A stretch of 64,000 bases of DNA from Aliiruegeria haliotis. Lineage in GTDB: Bacteria; Pseudomonadota; Alphaproteobacteria; Rhodobacterales; Rhodobacteraceae. The notes under the pieces are model-generated. The model ran no database searches and was not told the origin of the DNA. It worked only from the letters and a program-made list of their open reading frames with translations. Position 1 is the stretch's first letter. Each line of letters starts with the position of its first letter. Shown here piece after piece: positions 51,857 through 60,375 of the stretch. The translations under genes and the position numbers were made by a program. Location of the stretch: positions 124,001-188,000 of the forward strand of contig NZ_PVTD01000005.1 of assembly GCF_003003255.1 (NCBI RefSeq), in the 5' to 3' direction.

Positions 51857-51881
51857 GGAACATTTCCGCCGGCACGCCGTT
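51857..51881 (+). promoter_or_regulatory. EcfG-type promoter before the DUF1328 gene
   Basis: GGAAC at 51857-51861 and CGTT at 51878-51881 with exactly 16 bases between, the known alphaproteobacterial EcfG promoter form (GGAAC-N16/17-CGTT). The DUF1328 ATG lies 49 bases after the -10. The rest of the gap 51584-51930 shows no gene or other element that I can support. Confidence 0.75.
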
Positions 51882-52193: not shown

Positions 52194-52715
52194 ATGAACA
52201 GTCCGCTGAACATCGCCCCCAGCAACCCCATGAACATCGCCCCCTCGGACAAGGTCGTGAAGACCGGCGTCCGCGACGTGGATGCGGTCGCCGAAGGCCT
52301 CGCGGATGTGCTGTCCGAGAGCTACGCCGTGTTGCTCAAGACCCATAGCTATCACTGGAATGTCGAAGGTCCGCTGTTTCACGCGGTGCATGTTCTGACC
52401 GAGGAGCACTACACCGATCTGTTCGCGGCGATCGACGTGATTGCAGAGCGCATCAGGGCACTTGGCCGGGTTGCCCCGATGAAACCCTCCGATGTCGTGA
52501 ACATGTCCAACGAGCATTCCACGCTGGAGCATCCCTCGGCGCTCTGGATGCTGGAAGACCTCGCAAAGGACAACGAAAGGTTGGCCCACAAGCTGCACGC
52601 GTTGGTTGAGCTGGCGGATGCCCGCAAGGACCATGCGACGGCCGATCTTGCGACGGCCCGGATTGCTGTACACGAAAAAGCGGTGTGGATGCTGCGCGCG
52701 CTGGCCGCGTCCTGA
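52194..52715 (+). CDS. dps: Dps/ferritin-like DNA-protecting protein
   Basis: A 173-residue Dps-type protein that oxidises and stores iron and protects DNA. Seen: ferroxidase ligands in KTHSYHWNVEGPLFHAVHVLTEEHYTDLFAAIDVIAERI (His, Asp and Glu residues of the inter-subunit site), and the helical C-terminal half. A disordered N-terminal tail with Asn/Pro and Lys (about 1-20) precedes it. Stress context fits. Followed by a strong terminator. Confidence 0.94.
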   Translation: MNSPLNIAPSNPMNIAPSDKVVKTGVRDVDAVAEGLADVLSESYAVLLKTHSYHWNVEGPLFHAVHVLTEEHYTDLFAAIDVIAERIRALGRVAPMKPSDVVNMSNEHSTLEHPSALWMLEDLAKDNERLAHKLHALVELADARKDHATADLATARIAVHEKAVWMLRALAAS

Positions 52716-52798: not shown

Positions 52799-53608
52799 TC
52801 AGGCGCCGAGCGTTGCGGTCGACGCGAAGAACATGGCCTGGCTGACGGCGCCGACCACCTGATCGGGCTCATAGGGTTTGGCAATCAGGAACGTCGGCTC
52901 TGGGCGGTCCCCGGTCAGCAGGCGTTCGGGGAACGCGGTGATGAAGATCACTGGGACGTCGAGTTCCGGAAGCAGCGTCTTCACGGCATCGATGCCGCTG
53001 GAATTGTCGGCGAGCTGAATATCGGCAAGGATCAGGTCAGGTTGTTGCTTGCGTCCCATCTCGACCGCGGCATCGCGGGTGCGGGCGACGCCAGTCACCT
53101 CGTGCCCCATCATCGACAGGATGCCCTCGAGATCCATCGCGATGATTGCCTCGTCCTCGATGATCAGAACCCGGCCGCTCACCGATTTCTGCATTTCCGC
53201 GCGTGCGGTCTCCACCAGAGCGTCAGCTTCGGCGGCGTCGATTCCCATCACGAACGCCAGATCATCGATGGAGAAACCCTCGACGGTGTGCAGGAGCAAT
53301 GCTTCGCGCGAGTTCGGGGTAAGTGTTGCCAGATGCTGCGTTGCCTGGGCGCGGAGTGGATCCCCCGACACCGCATCCGGCGCATCGATACTCGTCCAGA
53401 TCGAATGGAACACCCGGAACAGCCCTGCCTTTCCACCCCGGCTTGCATCAAAGCAACTCGGATCGGCCAGGATTGCCTCCAACGTGGCTGCGGCCTGACG
53501 GTCCCCGCTGTCCTGCCGCCCGGTCAGCGCCCGGGCATGCCGGCGCAGAAATGGCAATTCCGGAGCAACGAGATCTGACATCTTGGTTGGTTGGCTGGGA
53601 TCGGTCAT
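52799..53608 (-). CDS. phyR: General stress response regulator PhyR
   Basis: A 269-residue protein with an N-terminal sigma-like domain (about 1-135) and a C-terminal receiver (about 145-260; acidic E151/D152, phospho-acceptor D196, T224, Lys in IAKPY). In alphaproteobacteria phosphorylated PhyR exposes its sigma-mimic part and captures the anti-sigma factor NepR, freeing EcfG. The start MTDPS follows the family; the longer frame has no support. Divergent from nepR with a shared promoter, which is the classic arrangement. Confidence 0.97.
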   Translation of the reverse strand: MTDPSQPTKMSDLVAPELPFLRRHARALTGRQDSGDRQAAATLEAILADPSCFDASRGGKAGLFRVFHSIWTSIDAPDAVSGDPLRAQATQHLATLTPNSREALLLHTVEGFSIDDLAFVMGIDAAEADALVETARAEMQKSVSGRVLIIEDEAIIAMDLEGILSMMGHEVTGVARTRDAAVEMGRKQQPDLILADIQLADNSSGIDAVKTLLPELDVPVIFITAFPERLLTGDRPEPTFLIAKPYEPDQVVGAVSQAMFFASTATLGA

Positions 53609-53637: not shown

Positions 53638-53668
53638 GGAACAAACGTTTCTCTCATGCGTTTGTTCC
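53638..53668. promoter_or_regulatory. Palindromic bidirectional EcfG promoter (phyR/nepR)
   Basis: GGAAC (53638-53642) and CGTT (53659-53662) are 16 bases apart on the plus strand; on the minus strand GGAAC (53668-53664) and CGTT (53647-53644) are also 16 apart. The two reads share one palindrome: 10-base arms 53638-53647 and 53659-53668 with an 11-base spacer. It therefore drives phyR and nepR-ecfG-kinase from one segment and should be autoregulated. Confidence 0.88.
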
Positions 53669-53724: not shown

Positions 53725-53910
53725 ATGCCATCGAAATCCAGAATGCTGAAAAGCCAGATAGACGACAACCTGCGCCTCATATTCGAGGAAGAGTCGCAAG
53801 CTGATTTGCCGCCGCGGTTGCAGGAACTACTTGAACGTCTCGATGAGATCGACGTGCCTGTCGGTGTCGCAAGCGGGGTTTCCGATCCCAAGACGGAGAA
53901 GAACTCGTGA
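53725..53910 (+). CDS. nepR: Anti-sigma factor NepR
   Basis: A 61-residue NepR-type protein that holds EcfG in the unstressed cell. Seen: two helices with the NepR pattern QIDDNLRLIFEEE and LPPRLQELLERL, plus a short acidic tail. The ATG at 53725 lies about 55 bases after the expected transcription start; the ATG at 53656 lies inside the promoter and cannot be used. The stop overlaps the ecfG GTG start (GTGA). Confidence 0.93.
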   Translation: MPSKSRMLKSQIDDNLRLIFEEESQADLPPRLQELLERLDEIDVPVGVASGVSDPKTEKNS

Positions 53911-54464
53911 ACCGACAAGATGCGAAGGCCGAACTGATCGGCCATATGAAGGTCCTGCGGGCCTTCGCCATGAGCCTGACCCGCAATCCAGCCGCCGCTG
54001 ACGACCTCGTGCAGGACACCGTGCTAAAGGCGTGGAGCAAGCTCGACACGTTCGAAGAGGGTACGAACATGCGGGCATGGTTGTTCACCATTCTGCGCAA
54101 TGGTTTCTATTCTGATCGACGGAAGGCCGCTCGCGAGACCGATGATCCGGAGGGCAATCTCGCTGGCGCTCTGGCGGAAAAGCCTGCACATGACGGGCGG
54201 TTGCAACTGGCGGATTTTCGGGTTGCCTTCGACACTCTCCCGCCGGAGCAACGCGAGGTCCTGACACTGGTCGGAGTGTTGCAATACTCTTACGAAGAGG
54301 CGGCGGAAATGTGTGGAGTGAAGATCGGAACGATCAAAAGCCGTCTCAAGCGCGGGCGCGATGCGCTGGCGCAGGCGATGGATCTGTCGGAGGACGAACC
54401 GATCGAAATGACGGATCAGGTCACCCAGTCCGTGGTCTCCGTCAATGGAGGAGCCGCTGCGTGA
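53907..54464 (+). CDS. ecfG: General stress sigma factor EcfG
   Basis: A 185-residue ECF sigma factor of the EcfG group. Seen: region 2 with AFAMSLTRNPAAADDLVQDTVLKAW (about 20-45) and NMRAWLFTILRN, and region 4 with LPPEQREVLTLVGVLQYSYEEAAEMCGVKIGTIKSRLKRGR. The start is GTG at 53907, inside the nepR end, so translation is coupled. The sensor kinase gene overlaps its stop in the same GTGA way. Confidence 0.97.
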   Translation: MNRQDAKAELIGHMKVLRAFAMSLTRNPAAADDLVQDTVLKAWSKLDTFEEGTNMRAWLFTILRNGFYSDRRKAARETDDPEGNLAGALAEKPAHDGRLQLADFRVAFDTLPPEQREVLTLVGVLQYSYEEAAEMCGVKIGTIKSRLKRGRDALAQAMDLSEDEPIEMTDQVTQSVVSVNGGAAA

Positions 54465-56221
54465 GCGAGCAACGGGCCGGGCCGCTCCCGGCGAAGCGTC
54501 TTCGGCTCCCGTTTCGCGGAAGCCTGTCGCTGCGTCTTGCCTCCTTGCTCTCGATTGCACTCCTTCCATTGGGTTTGATCGCGGTCTGGCAGACGACACG
54601 GCTGGAGCGAGAGCTTGACGAGATCCACTCCCTGACGACGACCGCGATCACCGCGCGCGCTGCCAGCAACGACCGCAGGACAATCGAGGCCGCGTTTGGT
54701 GCGGCGAAGGGGCTGGCGGCCGCGATCCCCGAGATGCGGGGCGATCCTGCGCAATGCCGCGAGACGTTCCAGCGCTTCCTCGACCGGTCGGGCGGTGATT
54801 TCGCCTTTGCCGGGTTCATTGACAGGGAGGGTCACTCGGTTTGCTCCTCCGCCGACACCAGCCTCGACCTGTCGGATGATCCCGAGTACCGGGCGTTGAT
54901 GTCTGGCGACCGCCGCAAGATCCTGGTGTTGCCGGAAGGACCGGTATCAGGCGCCTCGGTAATTCTGGCGGGTCAGCCAGTGCGTGATCGGGATGGCGCC
55001 GTGACGGGGTTCGTTGCTGTTTCGATCCCCCATCTGCGACTTGACCCGCCGCCTGATGACCAGATTGCCGGGCGGAAAATGGACCTGGTCACGATCAACC
55101 GGTCAGGAGAGATCCTGACTGCAACCGGCGACCTCGGTCAGGCGGAGGGCTGGCTGCCCGCGGACCGAGACGCGGCGGCGCTCGTCTATGGACCAGACCG
55201 CTTCATCGGACAGAACCGCAACGGGGAGACACGCGCCTTCTCTGTCGTTCCGATCGTCGAGGAAACTGTCTACGCCGTCGGCTCCTGGCTGCCGCGGTCC
55301 GCCGGCGAGGGCCGGGCATGGGTCTCGCCTGCGTTGTTCCCGATCCTCATGTGGCTGGCCAGCCTCGCACTGGTCTTCATGGCAGTGGAGCGGCTGGTCG
55401 TGCGGCACGTTCGCAGACTCGCAGCACAGATGCAGGTTTTCGGCCGCGACCGGAACCTGCCGCCAGCCGGGAGCGCAGAGTCGATGCCCTCTGAACTGGC
55501 CGCTATCGACGATGCGTTCGGTGAGCTGGCGGCCCGGCTCCTTCGCGACGAAGCTGACCTGCTGGATGCGATGCACGACAAGGATGTACTGCTCAAGGAG
55601 GTCCATCACCGCGTCAAGAACAACCTTCAGTTGATTTCCTCCATCATCAACATGCAGATCCGCGCCACCCAAAGCGACGAGACGCTGGCCGCGCTTCAGA
55701 ATGTGAATCGTCGGGTTGCAGGCATGGCAACGGTGCACCGCCGACTATACCAGGCCGAGAACCTCGGGCTCGTTCAGGCGGGTGATCTGTTGCGAGACGT
55801 CGTGGCGCCGCTCTTGGACCTCGCGCCTCCCGGCGGCGCACGGCCGGAGGTGGAGCTGAAGCTCGACCCGGTTGTGCTCTATCCCGACCAGGCGGTTCCG
55901 GTTGCGTTGCTGACCGTCGAGGCGGTGACAAACGCGCTCAAGTACCTGCAGACTGATGCAAACGGGGAACGCTGGCTTCGAGTCTGCCTCGACGATCTTG
56001 GCGAGGGAACGGTGCGGATTTCCACGGCGAGTTCCCTCTCAGAACGGCCGGCCACCGGCGAGAGCCAGGAAGCGGTTGATGCCGGCGGATTGGGAAGCCG
56101 GTTAATCGCTGCCTTTGCGAGGCAATTGGACTCCTCGGTCGAGATTGAAGAAGGTCAGGGCGTGTTCCGGCTTAGTGTCACGTTCGAGGCTTTGCCGTTC
56201 TCCAGTGACGATCCAGCCTGA
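54461..56221 (+). CDS. Membrane sensor kinase of the PhyR pathway (HisKA_2)
   Basis: A 586-residue kinase. Seen: N-terminal TM (about 27-45), a periplasmic sensor stretch (about 50-285), TM2 at about 290-312, then a HisKA_2 domain with VHHRVKNNLQLISSI (acceptor His at about 382) and an HATPase domain (N-box TVEAVTNALKYL). The kinase type, position and GTGA overlap with ecfG make it the likely PhyR phosphodonor (PhyK-like), an inference. The long reading from 54311 crosses ecfG and is not used; GTG 54461 is the start. Confidence 0.93.
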   Translation: MSEQRAGPLPAKRLRLPFRGSLSLRLASLLSIALLPLGLIAVWQTTRLERELDEIHSLTTTAITARAASNDRRTIEAAFGAAKGLAAAIPEMRGDPAQCRETFQRFLDRSGGDFAFAGFIDREGHSVCSSADTSLDLSDDPEYRALMSGDRRKILVLPEGPVSGASVILAGQPVRDRDGAVTGFVAVSIPHLRLDPPPDDQIAGRKMDLVTINRSGEILTATGDLGQAEGWLPADRDAAALVYGPDRFIGQNRNGETRAFSVVPIVEETVYAVGSWLPRSAGEGRAWVSPALFPILMWLASLALVFMAVERLVVRHVRRLAAQMQVFGRDRNLPPAGSAESMPSELAAIDDAFGELAARLLRDEADLLDAMHDKDVLLKEVHHRVKNNLQLISSIINMQIRATQSDETLAALQNVNRRVAGMATVHRRLYQAENLGLVQAGDLLRDVVAPLLDLAPPGGARPEVELKLDPVVLYPDQAVPVALLTVEAVTNALKYLQTDANGERWLRVCLDDLGEGTVRISTASSLSERPATGESQEAVDAGGLGSRLIAAFARQLDSSVEIEEGQGVFRLSVTFEALPFSSDDPA

Positions 56222-56250: not shown

Positions 56251-57315
56251 TCAAGCGGGTGGTGGCGTTTCGGATCCGCGTGGCGCTGGCCCGTCCGGGA
56301 GGCCGAGCTGCCAGCCCGTCATGCTGAGCGTCCATACAAGGAGCGGGATCGCGACAATCCCGCCAATCGGACCCCAGAGCCAGAGCCAGATTGTGAGGGA
56401 CAGGAAAACAAGCAGCGGGTTGATGGTCATGCTGTGGCCCACGAGCGTCGGTGTCACGAACTGGCCCTCCGTCACGTTCAGCGCAAGGTAGGCGGCCATC
56501 GGCAGGATGCCGGCAATTCCGTCGAAGGTGAGGATGCCCGCCACGGCGAGCGCAGAGGCGAAGATTGCCGGGCCGAGATAGGGTGCGAAGTTGAACAGGA
56601 ATGCCAGCACACCCCACAGGACCGGTGAGGGCATTCCCAGGGCCGACATGGTCACAGCGACGAGAATTCCAAGACCGGCGTTGATCACGCTGATCGTCAG
56701 GAAGTACCGGGACACACGCGCCTCCGCCTTGCGCAACCGATGGGAATCGACGGTTTGTGTGGCGCGTTCGACCAGCTCATAGATCTCGTCCCGCGACAGC
56801 AGGAAGAAAAACAGCGTTCCCACGAACACAAGAGCCTGTCCGGCCAGCGCCGGTGCATAGCCGAGCGCCGTCGCAACATCGGGCAGCGCTTCGTCTGGGG
56901 CGATAATCTGGTCACCGCCCGCACTCTCGGTGTCGCCCTCGTCCTTCAATGCCTCGTTCACCGTTTCCGCCATCTCCTCGACGCCCCGCAGCAGGTTGCG
57001 CAGGTTCTCGATGGCTCCTTGCGCTTCTTCCCAGAGGATCGGGGCACGGCGGACAAGTTCGCGCACATAGGGGTCCATGAAGAGCACGAACAGCCCGATG
57101 AGCATTGCTACGAGCAGCAGCCCGGAAAAGGCGGCGAGGGATCGTGGCACACCTGCGGAACGTGCAAGATCGACCAGCGGCGCGAAGACCACACCGACAA
57201 CGAGCGCCAGGACAACCGGCGCCAGGATTTGCTGGGAGGCCCAGAAGACCGCCAGCATGGCCAGGATGGCGAGTGCGATCTGAGCGATACAAGCCATTCT
57301 GGCCAAGGGTGTCAT
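56251..57315 (-). CDS. AI-2E family transporter (PerM-like)
   Basis: A 354-residue membrane protein with about eight hydrophobic segments, N-terminal pair (IAQIALAILAMLAVFWASQQILAPVVLALVVG), and the C-terminal YLALNVTEGQFVTPTLVGHSMTINPLLVFLSLTIW region characteristic of the family. Members export autoinducer-2 or other small molecules or exchange Na+ and H+; the substrate here is unknown. The ATG at 57315 has AGAGGAGG upstream; the longer frame has no support. An EcfG promoter lies just before it. Confidence 0.92.
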   Translation of the reverse strand: MTPLARMACIAQIALAILAMLAVFWASQQILAPVVLALVVGVVFAPLVDLARSAGVPRSLAAFSGLLLVAMLIGLFVLFMDPYVRELVRRAPILWEEAQGAIENLRNLLRGVEEMAETVNEALKDEGDTESAGGDQIIAPDEALPDVATALGYAPALAGQALVFVGTLFFFLLSRDEIYELVERATQTVDSHRLRKAEARVSRYFLTISVINAGLGILVAVTMSALGMPSPVLWGVLAFLFNFAPYLGPAIFASALAVAGILTFDGIAGILPMAAYLALNVTEGQFVTPTLVGHSMTINPLLVFLSLTIWLWLWGPIGGIVAIPLLVWTLSMTGWQLGLPDGPAPRGSETPPPA

Positions 57316-57335: not shown

Positions 57336-57360
57336 AACGCACAGTATCGAGGGAGGTTCC
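57336..57360 (-). promoter_or_regulatory. EcfG-type promoter of the AI-2E transporter
   Basis: On the minus strand GGAAC (57360-57356) and CGTT (57339-57336) are exactly 16 bases apart. The leader to the ATG at 57315 is about 15 bases and includes the ribosome site. Confidence 0.78.
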
Positions 57361-57385
57361 CGGCACCGCGCGATCATGTGCCATT

Positions 57386-57410
57386 GGAACCTTTCCCGGG
57401 CCTAGGCGTT
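57386..57410 (+). promoter_or_regulatory. EcfG-type promoter of the amidoligase gene
   Basis: GGAAC (57386-57390) and CGTT (57407-57410) are 16 bases apart on the plus strand. The amidoligase ATG starts only 8 bases after the -10, so the transcript is probably leaderless or nearly so; no Shine-Dalgarno sequence precedes the ATG. Confidence 0.78.
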
Positions 57411-57418
57411 CCCACTTC

Positions 57419-58441
57419 ATGGATATACAGCGCACAACCCCCTCCGAGAACTCCCCTGTCTTCGCGCCGTTGCCGGCTGATCCGTCATGTGAATCGCCAC
57501 GTCGTGTCGGGCTTGAGATCGAGTTCGCCGGGCTTTCGTTGCCGGACGCCACAGGTGTCGTGAAGCAGCGTTTCTCCGGCCGCGAAATCTGGAACGGCGC
57601 CGGGGAGGTAACCCTGCAGCACAGTTCCATTGGCAAGATCGAGATGTACCTGGACACGGCATTCCGCCCGGAGTCGGAGTCCGCCGCCGCGAAGGCCGGT
57701 GTGGAAATTGCCCAGTCCGTGGTGCCATTGGAGATCGTGACCGAGCCCTTGCTTCATACCGATCTGCCGCAGATGGAGGCTCTGGTCGCGGACCTGGACG
57801 CCGCAGGCGGCCACGGCGGCGGAAAGAGTCTGCTGATCGGCTGCGGTCTGCACCTGAATATCGATCTTGCCGACAGCGAAGAAGGATCGGACTTGCCCCG
57901 GATTGCGCTTGCCTACGCATTGCTGGAGGGCTGGCTGCGTTGGCGAGACCCGCCGGAGCTGAGCCGACGTCTCTTGCCATTTGTCGACCCCTTTCCGGCC
58001 GACATGGTGTCTGACCTGGCCGGGATGGGCCCCGGGATGAGTTGCGACGACCTGTTCACGCTGCTGTCGCGATACGCTCTGAGCCGCAACCAGGGGCTCG
58101 ATCTCCTGCCAGCGTGGGCTGCCGTTGCACCGGAACGGTATGAGCGGGATGGGCCGGTCGACAGTGCGGTCTCCCCACGTCCGGCATATCACTATCGGTT
58201 GCCGGATTGCAGGATCGGCGATGCCGAATGGTCACTCGCCTACGAGTGGGACCGTTGGCAGCTGATCGAGAACGTGGCGCGGAGGACTGACCTGCTGGAG
58301 GCATTGTGCAACCTTTGGCTCGCGGCAGACGGAACGCAGTTGCTGCCCGGCCATACCGAATGGCACGAGGCAGTCACCGGGCACCTTGGCTCGCTGGCAA
58401 CCTTGGCGCCGAACTACCGTTCGGTTCAGGAGGGCGGATAG
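57419..58441 (+). CDS. Amidoligase family protein
   Basis: A 340-residue protein of the putative amidoligase (GCS-like, COOH-NH2 ligase) superfamily. Seen: RRVGLEIEFAGLS (the N-terminal E-x-E metal/ATP motif) and GCGLHLNIDL, a strand with a conserved His, followed by helices. No signal peptide, so cytosolic. Amidoligases join a carboxyl group to an amine with ATP; paired with a glutamine amidotransferase they are thought to make or cut peptide-like conjugates. The ATG at 57419 is the only start after its EcfG promoter. The GATase gene starts 1 base after its stop. Confidence 0.85.
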   Translation: MDIQRTTPSENSPVFAPLPADPSCESPRRVGLEIEFAGLSLPDATGVVKQRFSGREIWNGAGEVTLQHSSIGKIEMYLDTAFRPESESAAAKAGVEIAQSVVPLEIVTEPLLHTDLPQMEALVADLDAAGGHGGGKSLLIGCGLHLNIDLADSEEGSDLPRIALAYALLEGWLRWRDPPELSRRLLPFVDPFPADMVSDLAGMGPGMSCDDLFTLLSRYALSRNQGLDLLPAWAAVAPERYERDGPVDSAVSPRPAYHYRLPDCRIGDAEWSLAYEWDRWQLIENVARRTDLLEALCNLWLAADGTQLLPGHTEWHEAVTGHLGSLATLAPNYRSVQEGG

Positions 58442-58442
58442 A

Positions 58443-59192
58443 ATGGCCCGGAGAGAGCACAATCGCCCGCTGATTGGCGTGACGACCTCTGCCCGCTCGG
58501 GGTGGCGCATCTTCCCGCTGGTCGCTTTCAACCTGTGGCTTGTGGGCGGACGCGGGATCCGCTGGGGCGCCGGGCGCCCCGCCGATCTTGATGCGGTCGA
58601 TGGTTTGATCATTGGTGGCGGAGATGACATCGCGCCGGCGCTTTATGGCGGCGAGATCGTGGCCGAGGCCGTACTGGAGCCCCAGCGGGACGCGCTGGAA
58701 AGGACGCTGGCGGAGGCGGCGCTGACCCGCGGGATTCCTGTGCTCGGGATCTGCCGCGGCGCGCAAATGCTGAATATCGCTGCGGGCGGGACGCTGATGG
58801 GGGATGCCTTCGCCCGTCACCCCGAATCGCGAAAGGTCCGCACTATCCTTCCACGCCGGATTGTGTCGGTATCCGCCGACAGTTGGCTGCGCCGGATCAC
58901 CGGGCGCGATACGCTCAAGGTCAACGCCTTGCACAGCCAAGCGGTTGATCGATTGGGCAATGGGCTGCGTGTGGGTGCGCGGGATGGCGGCGGCATGGTG
59001 CAGGCCATTGAAAGCACACGCGATCCGTTCGCGCTGGGCGTGCAATGGCACCCGGAGCATCTTTTCTATCGCGCCGCGCATCGGCGGCTCTTCACGGCGC
59101 TTGTTGCCGCCGCGCGTGAACGGCGCCTGGAGCGGCACGGGAACGGCCGTCAGAGGGCTGCCGTGGCCGGGGCACTGAAGCCGTCCGGCTAG
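58443..59192 (+). CDS. Class I glutamine amidotransferase, gamma-Glu-GABA hydrolase type
   Basis: A 249-residue peptidase C26-type amidotransferase. Seen: GLIIGGGDDIAP, nucleophile Cys104 in GICRGAQML, and His203/Glu205 in GVQWHPEHL, so the catalytic triad is complete. PuuD-like enzymes cut gamma-glutamyl amides. Its gene follows the amidoligase by 1 base and must be co-transcribed; the two probably make and cut, or supply ammonia for, the same amide bond. The C-terminal tail after 220 is basic and probably disordered. Confidence 0.9.
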   Translation: MARREHNRPLIGVTTSARSGWRIFPLVAFNLWLVGGRGIRWGAGRPADLDAVDGLIIGGGDDIAPALYGGEIVAEAVLEPQRDALERTLAEAALTRGIPVLGICRGAQMLNIAAGGTLMGDAFARHPESRKVRTILPRRIVSVSADSWLRRITGRDTLKVNALHSQAVDRLGNGLRVGARDGGGMVQAIESTRDPFALGVQWHPEHLFYRAAHRRLFTALVAAARERRLERHGNGRQRAAVAGALKPSG

Positions 59193-59588: not shown

Positions 59589-60095
59589 TCAAGCCGCGAT
59601 CTGGATCACGGTGTGAAAGCCGAGGTCTTCGGCCGAACCGCCGGCATTGGCGCGCAGGACGTTGATGCCGAACACGACCGGGTTGGACGGGCTCGCCCAG
59701 AGCGCGGCTTCTCGCAGTGTCATTCGCAACAGGATCGCATCCGATTCCGTCGGCGCCTCGCCTTCGAAGAAGGCGGCGGACACCGGCGACCAGAGGTTGC
59801 GCAACCGTTCCGGGTTGTCGACCTGCATGAGCGCGCCGGTGAAGCTGATGTGAACGTCCTGCGCCTTGGTCACGAGCGTGAATCGCGCATCCGCGCCTTC
59901 GCCCACCGCTGCGACAAGGTCGGATTGGCGGTTGACGATGAACCAAAGCTCACCGTCACTCCGCTCCAGGTGATGTGTCATGGGTTGCGGATGCTGGCCA
60001 CTTGCCGGGACCCACAACATGCCCGCCCGGGTGTCGTCGAGCGCATCGAAAACGAGTTTTTCCGGGGCTTCCCGGGCTGTGTCGAGATCCGGCAT
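59589..60095 (-). CDS. Pyridoxamine-phosphate-oxidase-like general stress protein
   Basis: A 168-residue split-barrel flavin-binding-type protein of the general stress protein 26 family. Seen: MTHHLERSDGELWFIVNRQSDLVAAV (barrel strands), DVHISFTGALMQVDN and the LWSPVSAAFFEG segment typical of this family. May bind FMN or F420-like cofactors. It lies 3 bases after csbD, under the same EcfG promoter. Exact reaction unknown. Confidence 0.88.
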   Translation of the reverse strand: MPDLDTAREAPEKLVFDALDDTRAGMLWVPASGQHPQPMTHHLERSDGELWFIVNRQSDLVAAVGEGADARFTLVTKAQDVHISFTGALMQVDNPERLRNLWSPVSAAFFEGEAPTESDAILLRMTLREAALWASPSNPVVFGINVLRANAGGSAEDLGFHTVIQIAA

Positions 60096-60098
60096 CGC

Positions 60099-60296
60099 TC
60101 ACGCCTCCGCCAGCCAGCGATCGATAGCGTCGCGGGCTTCTTCCTTGGTCTTTCCGTACTTCTGGCGCAGCAATCCTTCGAGCTGCTCGCGGTCGCCCTC
60201 GGCTTCCGCCAGTTCATCATCGTTCAGGCGGCCCCAGGTCTCCTTGGCCTTGCCCTTCATTTCCTGCCAGTTTCCGCGAACTTGGTCCCAGTTCAT
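60099..60296 (-). CDS. CsbD family stress protein
   Basis: A 65-residue CsbD-like protein: MNWDQVRGNWQEMKGKAKET at the N-terminus, then KLNDDEL-like GRLNDDELAEAEGDREQLEGLLRQKYGKTKEEA, the family pattern. Small, soluble, helical and stress induced in many bacteria; molecular role unknown. ATG 60296 is the family start, the longer frame having no support. First gene of an EcfG-controlled operon. Confidence 0.93.
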   Translation of the reverse strand: MNWDQVRGNWQEMKGKAKETWGRLNDDELAEAEGDREQLEGLLRQKYGKTKEEARDAIDRWLAEA

Positions 60297-60350
60297 CTTG
60301 GGTCTCCTTTCCGTAGTGGTCGCCTGCTCACGCGGCGCCTTCACAGAGAG

Positions 60351-60375
60351 AACGGCGACAGGCCCGGAATGTTCC
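60351..60375 (-). promoter_or_regulatory. EcfG-type promoter of the csbD operon
   Basis: On the minus strand GGAAC (60375-60371) and CGTT (60354-60351) are exactly 16 bases apart, giving a leader of about 47 bases before the csbD ATG. Confidence 0.8.

Follow-up and report, generated by a model that had tools for sequence, protein, structure and literature searches.

In the stretch of Aliiruegeria haliotis DNA analysed here (64,000 nucleotides, hereafter the window), an amidoligase gene and the peptidase C26 gene immediately behind it lie close to the core genes of the general stress response (GSR) and carry an EcfG-type promoter of their own. The account that we favour, with a probability of roughly 0.6, is that this pair would act as a GSR effector module, expressed from a leaderless EcfG-dependent mRNA and installing a reversible gamma-glutamyl cap, and that the neighbouring AI-2E family transporter is unrelated to it. 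The features of the locus, in window coordinates, are:

52194-52715: Dps-like ferritin gene, with an exact EcfG-type match at 51857-51881, about 310 bp upstream
52799..53608, minus strand: PhyR, the anti-anti-sigma response regulator of the GSR core (start codon picked by eye)
53725..53910, plus strand: NepR anti-sigma factor, a short ORF recognized by eye and by its resemblance to the ORFs that relatives have in this position
53907..54464, plus strand: EcfG, the general stress sigma factor
54446..56221, plus strand: HWE/HisKA_2 sensor kinase of the GSR (start uncertain)
56251..57315, minus strand: AI-2E family transporter, 354 aa, assigned by profile PF01594
57336..57360, minus strand: EcfG-type promoter of the AI-2E gene, GGAAC-N16-CGTT, 20 nt from the ATG, which is preceded by AGAGGAGG
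57386..57410, plus strand: EcfG-type promoter of the amidoligase gene, GGAAC-N16-CGTT, whose GTT ends 8 nt before the ATG
57419..58441, plus strand: amidoligase, 340 aa, PF12224, with a modelled glutamine-synthetase fold; probable gamma-glutamyl-amine ligase
58443..59192, plus strand: class I glutamine amidotransferase (GATase)/peptidase C26 protein, 249 aa, with C104, H203 and E205 intact; probable gamma-glutamyl amide hydrolase
59589-60095, minus strand: pyridoxamine-oxidase-like gene
about 60099-60302, minus strand: CsbD gene, with another EcfG-type match at 60351-60375

The two exact GGAAC-N16-CGTT promoters described in the initial annotation are indeed present, arranged back to back (57360 to 57336 on the minus strand and 57386 to 57410 on the plus strand) with 25 bases between them, and the C26 gene begins 1 nt past the amidoligase stop codon. 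The phyR, nepR, ecfG and HWE/HisKA_2 kinase genes, which adjoin the transporter–amidoligase–C26 set, were absent from that annotation. Beyond the set lie the CsbD gene with its EcfG-type match and the pyridoxamine-oxidase-like gene, so that this region of the window looks like a GSR island. We note that phyR and nepR-ecfG have divergent EcfG promoters sharing one inverted repeat (window 53638-53668, GGAACAAAC...GTTTGTTCC), in which each -35 box is the complement of the bases beside the other promoter's -10; these overlapping promoters occur in all five genus loci with phyR (the window, L243, L244, L245 and L247). A second PhyR copy, of 62% identity, lies elsewhere in the window's own genome (G000:C7:80253-81053, L241).

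Eight matches to GGAAC-N15-17-CGTT occur in the window against 1.69 expected, a number that none of 100 shuffles reaches. Genome-wide the motif is not enriched (171 matches versus 251 for a reversed control pattern), so a single match proves little, and it is position and conservation that carry the case. Across 80 named amidoligase loci, which are the best 80 of 578 confirmed and are weighted to Rhodobacteraceae, a strict GGAAC-N16/17-CGTT lies within -200 to +60 of the amidoligase start in 13 (one match being antisense), compared with 0.82 expected from the motif density in the same 80 loci. Six control patterns were found at the amidoligase starts of 0-2 of these loci each, the two of the six with wrong spacing at 2 and 1 loci versus 0.12 expected. 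Within the genus, the EcfG-type amidoligase promoter is present in the window and in all three congeners that have the gene. As far as promoter conservation can show, the EcfG control that had been proposed for the pair is supported.

The initial annotation did not mention the 8-nt spacing of the amidoligase ATG from the -10 element. Promoter-like GGAAC-N16/17-[CTG]GTT sequences give 32 hits at amidoligases, two of them duplicates of others, and in 17 of the 32 the first in-frame ATG lies exactly 8 nt after the GTT, the remainder falling at 2 to 179 nt; the gap-8 promoters include those of the window, Chachezhania, Roseisalinus, Pseudoroseicyclus, Palleronia, Pseudooceanicola and Maliponia, and a second ATG at gap 8 in locus L093 makes an 18th. 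Counted over 97 non-redundant amidoligase loci, gap 8 occurs in 17 and any other gap from 0 to 40 in at most two. When up to one mismatch is allowed, 19 loci stand at gap 8, where 200 scrambled motifs average 0.10 loci and never exceed 2. All four genus amidoligases show this gap. Among other EcfG-type promoters, those of phyR and dps stand at gap 20 or more and those of csbD at 17 and 36, and AI-2E promoters have gap 8 in 2 of 31 cases. Gap 8 is found at 4 of 100 other motif matches with an ORF behind them in the same loci (103 were listed, of which three are the genus amidoligases and were left out), versus 9 of 17 at the named amidoligases. It is a tendency of the amidoligase promoter and no general habit of EcfG-type promoters, and this locking is new here. 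The amidoligase GGAAC starts 33 (N16) or 34 (N17) nt before the ATG; in the available part of a Caulobacter study, the SigT motif is placed about 35 bp upstream of the transcription start site, and at -34 for one antisense start (PMC4287350). Transcription should therefore start on or next to the ATG, and the locked gap predicts a leaderless amidoligase stress mRNA. The accessible part of one report documents 171 leaderless mRNAs with an AUG start in S. meliloti and names such mRNAs for R. sphaeroides (PMC3616915).

The link to the GSR takes several forms among the 80 named loci. The amidoligase lies at most 200 bp behind a GSR kinase gene in 12 (two of which also have their own promoter), an own EcfG promoter is found in 11 others, and 5 more have PhyR in the locus; the other 52 have no GSR neighbours, no kinase directly upstream and no strict EcfG promoter. 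PhyR is nearby in 22 named loci, from isolates and MAGs, which offers several organisms in which to study the pair. The promoter is present and GSR genes are absent from the locus in L055, L069, L073, L086 and L116, as well as in L104, of which only 248 bp upstream are covered. The L104 contig bears the label of an Oceanospirillaceae MAG, but its amidoligase, which has an EcfG-type promoter, is Pseudooceanicola-like; the contig is perhaps mis-binned. GSR genes lie within about 7 kb of the amidoligase in 8 of 22 other family loci. At class level, none of 20 loci has a strict EcfG promoter at the amidoligase (the GGTT variant occurs in two), and the idea that EcfG controls the pair in general was rejected on this ground. 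On the tree, GSR coupling requires no fewer than 13 changes, and the own promoter requires 12 among 14 rows, which indicates that the coupling has come and gone repeatedly. EcfG control of the pair, as predicted from these promoters, is a lineage-specific wiring that is repeated in Rhodobacteraceae.

In the family sample, PhyR occurs in 20 of the 23 genomes with an amidoligase and in 46 of the 125 others (Fisher p 7e-6, with kinship ignored and the two family samples, of 149 and 148 genomes, treated as identical). Four of the nine genus genomes have the amidoligase and five have PhyR, and no amidoligase occurs without PhyR. PhyR at E up to 1e-30 is absent from G007, G898, G899 and G903, and G007 also lacks a close EcfG, its best match having 30% identity; judged by these searches, the GSR core seems to have been lost, or never gained, in the four genomes. 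The titles and openings of abstracts in the literature searched held nothing that ties an amidoligase to EcfG or the GSR, and the paper on the S. melonis EcfG regulon, whose main text was searched by term, mentions no amidoligase, glutamine amidotransferase, AI-2E or CsbD there (PMC6599016). In R. sphaeroides, PhyR serves in membrane stress defence, according to the available portion of one study (PMC5830050).

The amidoligase–C26 pair is a widespread proteobacterial module. PF12224 was found in 23 of 149 family, 26 of 385 class and 24 of 398 phylum genomes. A C26 homologue adjoins the amidoligase in 70 of the 80 named loci. The count is 19 of 22 for the other loci of the family and 21 of 24 at class level; among the phylum-level genomes that were newly seen it is 15 of 19, and two of the four without a C26 neighbour are fragment matches. 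The C26 gene is the only constant amidoligase neighbour in 20 class-level loci, where ORFs of 90 codons and up were called and the gene calling was crude, with antisense ORFs in high-GC DNA. In the named loci, with gene names given by eye, 24 of 80 have an rlmN-like gene upstream of the amidoligase, in most cases around -1.2 kb; downstream, 15 have a LOG-like gene and 13 a dapD-like one. These neighbours are uninformative, and a hint at the substrate from the surroundings was rejected. The rlmN-like surroundings (L057 to L132) form a second habitat of the pair, in which few loci have an EcfG-type promoter. The amidoligase range of Alkalilacustris brevis (L101:7971-8987) contains one in-frame stop.

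The amidoligase passes the PF12224 (Amidoligase_2) profile with 117.5 bits against a cut-off of 22, and its mean column identity is 46% in alignments of 20 and of 70 sequences. Its predicted fold, compared by running VIA-align along Foldseek's ranking, matches glutamine synthetase (GS) and gamma-glutamyl ligases. The motifs GLEIEF (31-36), GLHLN (143-147) and HYR (258-260) provide E33, E35, H145, N147, H258 and R260, which are invariant in 70 sequences; by eye, the motif order is that of GS and GCS2 (GxExE, GxHxH, ExR), with N and H substituting for H and E. Profile comparison with GS, plant-type GCL and GCS2 gave no link, no sequence similarity was found to GS or GCS2 of the same lineage, and a PDB sequence search with amidoligase profiles matched no chain. 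The tie to gamma-glutamyl ligases runs only through the predicted fold and the motif order, on which the protein is probably a gamma-glutamyl-amine ligase.

The partner protein scores 156.6 bits with Peptidase_C26 (cut-off 20.5) and 53.6 bits with GATase PF00117, and its mean column identity of 67% over 13 sequences is above that of the amidoligase. The complete triad reported in the initial annotation is borne out: C104, H203 and E205, the residues of the C26/GATase triad, are invariant in 13 aligned sequences. An ammonia-supplying glutaminase subunit, with which the amidoligase would amidate a carboxylate in the manner of MurT-GatD, would fit the GATase match, the triad, the 1-nt spacing and the joint occurrence of the two genes in most loci. 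The closest solved and curated relatives, however, are C26 proteins and not synthase glutaminases, and in 10 genomes the C26 neighbour is replaced by a protein of the gamma-glutamyl cyclotransferase family, of which we know of no member that supplies ammonia; we therefore consider a glutaminase subunit unlikely. By its relatives, the C26 protein is a probable gamma-glutamyl amide hydrolase, and it stays below the NCBIfam equivalog for PuuD (92.6 bits versus a cut-off of 266).

The replacement occurs in one clade, in which the C26 orthologue is absent and a gamma-glutamylamine-cyclotransferase (GGACT) gene adjoins the amidoligase instead. It represents one evolutionary event, in genomes that are mostly MAGs and possibly incomplete. 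At the N-terminus of the GGACT proteins lies a hydrophobic segment, which is missing from the C26 proteins sampled, so the two partners may differ somewhat in job. No EcfG promoter was found at the GGACT loci, and a PDB search with the GGACT set gave weak hits alone, including an AIG2-like chain at E 0.82. One locus (L128) has a C26 gene and, upstream on the other strand, a GGACT homologue of 54% identity, a possible intermediate of the swap. An exchange of C26 for GGACT points to a gamma-glutamyl bond that is made and cut. The swap, which is new here, hints at the bond handled by the Amidoligase_2/C26 pair; no such hint was found in the searched parts of the literature, a scope outside which Iyer et al. 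2009 lies. GGACT acts on gamma-glutamyl-epsilon-lysine, and amidoligases of this superfamily were reportedly predicted by Iyer and colleagues to modify peptides, both of which would suit a pair that modifies a protein or peptide, by reversible lysine gamma-glutamylation, in place of a small amine. Against such a target, which we regard as less likely again than the glutaminase subunit, no recurring peptide gene or protease lies near the 20 class-level loci among ORFs of 90 codons and up.

The transporter matches the AI-2E profile PF01594 with 146.7 bits (cut-off 34.3). The initial annotation had placed it with the two enzymes in one system that makes, cuts and exports a conjugate, and the divergent EcfG promoters in one intergenic region, found in the window and in congeners G900 and G902, agree with this. 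It had also named linkage in other genomes beforehand as a test of that idea, and the linkage fails: none of the 80 named loci has AI-2E near the amidoligase, and the two are adjacent in 1 of 22 other family loci. Among 29 other AI-2E loci, chosen as the best of 40 matches with E no higher than 1e-40, GGAAC-N16/17-[C/G]GTT lies within 300 bp upstream in 15 (12 with CGTT, 3 with GGTT) versus about 2.4 expected from density, and the 1.5-kb flanks hold csbD in 5, a GSR kinase in 4 and the amidoligase in 1. In the genus each occurs alone, the pair in G897, at the GSR locus with its own EcfG promoter and no AI-2E between, and AI-2E in G901, at the GSR locus with its own EcfG promoter and no pair. 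A three-gene system is largely refuted by these linkage patterns, and we give it very little credence; the AI-2E transporter is judged to be a separate GSR gene outside the pair. Besides EcfG control, the part of the proposal that stands is the making and cutting of a gamma-glutamyl amide by two enzymes, which the swap and the fold make likely.

In the account that we prefer, a GSR effector pair with a reversible cap, stress would free EcfG, which would begin transcription on the A of the amidoligase ATG or no more than about 1 nt away from it. The resulting leaderless mRNA would encode the amidoligase and, 1 nt downstream, the C26 enzyme. The amidoligase, with its glutamine-synthetase fold, would activate with ATP the gamma-carboxyl of glutamate, which we infer to be the donor, and join it to an amine, either a metabolite or, in a peptide, a lysine or the N-terminus. 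The C26 enzyme, whose place GGACT would take in one clade, would cleave the gamma-glutamyl amide. The net effect would be a reversible gamma-glutamyl cap by which an amine is buffered, stored, protected or detoxified under stress. The AI-2E transporter would be a stress gene unrelated to the pair, with nothing but the intergenic region in common. More tentatively, and at less than even odds, the GSR may include a reversible gamma-glutamylation cycle as such, in which an EcfG-started leaderless mRNA would have no need of a Shine-Dalgarno sequence, a ligase would cap the amine, and the remover would be replaceable.

The gene pair is of a known kind. Iyer et al. are said to have predicted, in 2009, the Amidoligase_2 family and its pairing with GATases, the same family and the same type of gene pair as in the window, so that the description of the set as an undescribed system does not hold; stress regulation, the leaderless promoter and the cyclotransferase swap are, to our knowledge, not known from that work. 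In E. coli, PuuA and PuuD (gamma-glutamylputrescine synthetase and gamma-glutamyl-GABA hydrolase) likewise combine a GS-fold ligase with a C26 hydrolase. Unlike PuuA, the window ligase belongs to PF12224 and not to Gln-synt_C, and no constant oxidase or dehydrogenase lies beside pairs of the window type in the 20 class-level loci. From GmaS and 1-naphthylamine gamma-glutamyl synthetase the amidoligase differs in sequence family, with 9-10% identity. A cluster in the LUZ24-like phage UFV-P2, in the part of its description available, contains Amidoligase_2, class II GATase, ATP-grasp and AIG2/GGCT-like genes (PMC3890496); it resembles our case in having Amidoligase_2 and a GGCT-like gene together, and differs in its phage setting, extra ligases and other GATase class, with EcfG not mentioned in that part. 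With the alphaproteobacterial GSR regulon (PhyR-NepR-EcfG) the window pair shares the GGAAC-N16/17-CGTT promoter and the position at the core locus. A gene pair of this known kind was not found described in such a regulatory role in the searched parts of the literature.

Most effectors of the alphaproteobacterial stress response are unassigned; rpoE2 induces some 202 protein genes in S. meliloti, of which 150 were without predicted function, according to the accessible part of the report (PMC3616915). The amidoligase–C26 pair is one candidate effector with a definite chemistry, made testable by its EcfG promoter, probably a leaderless one, and by the swap of C26 for a cyclotransferase. If the account is true, a gamma-glutamylation cycle would add to the GSR a stress-effector chemistry that has not yet been attributed to it.
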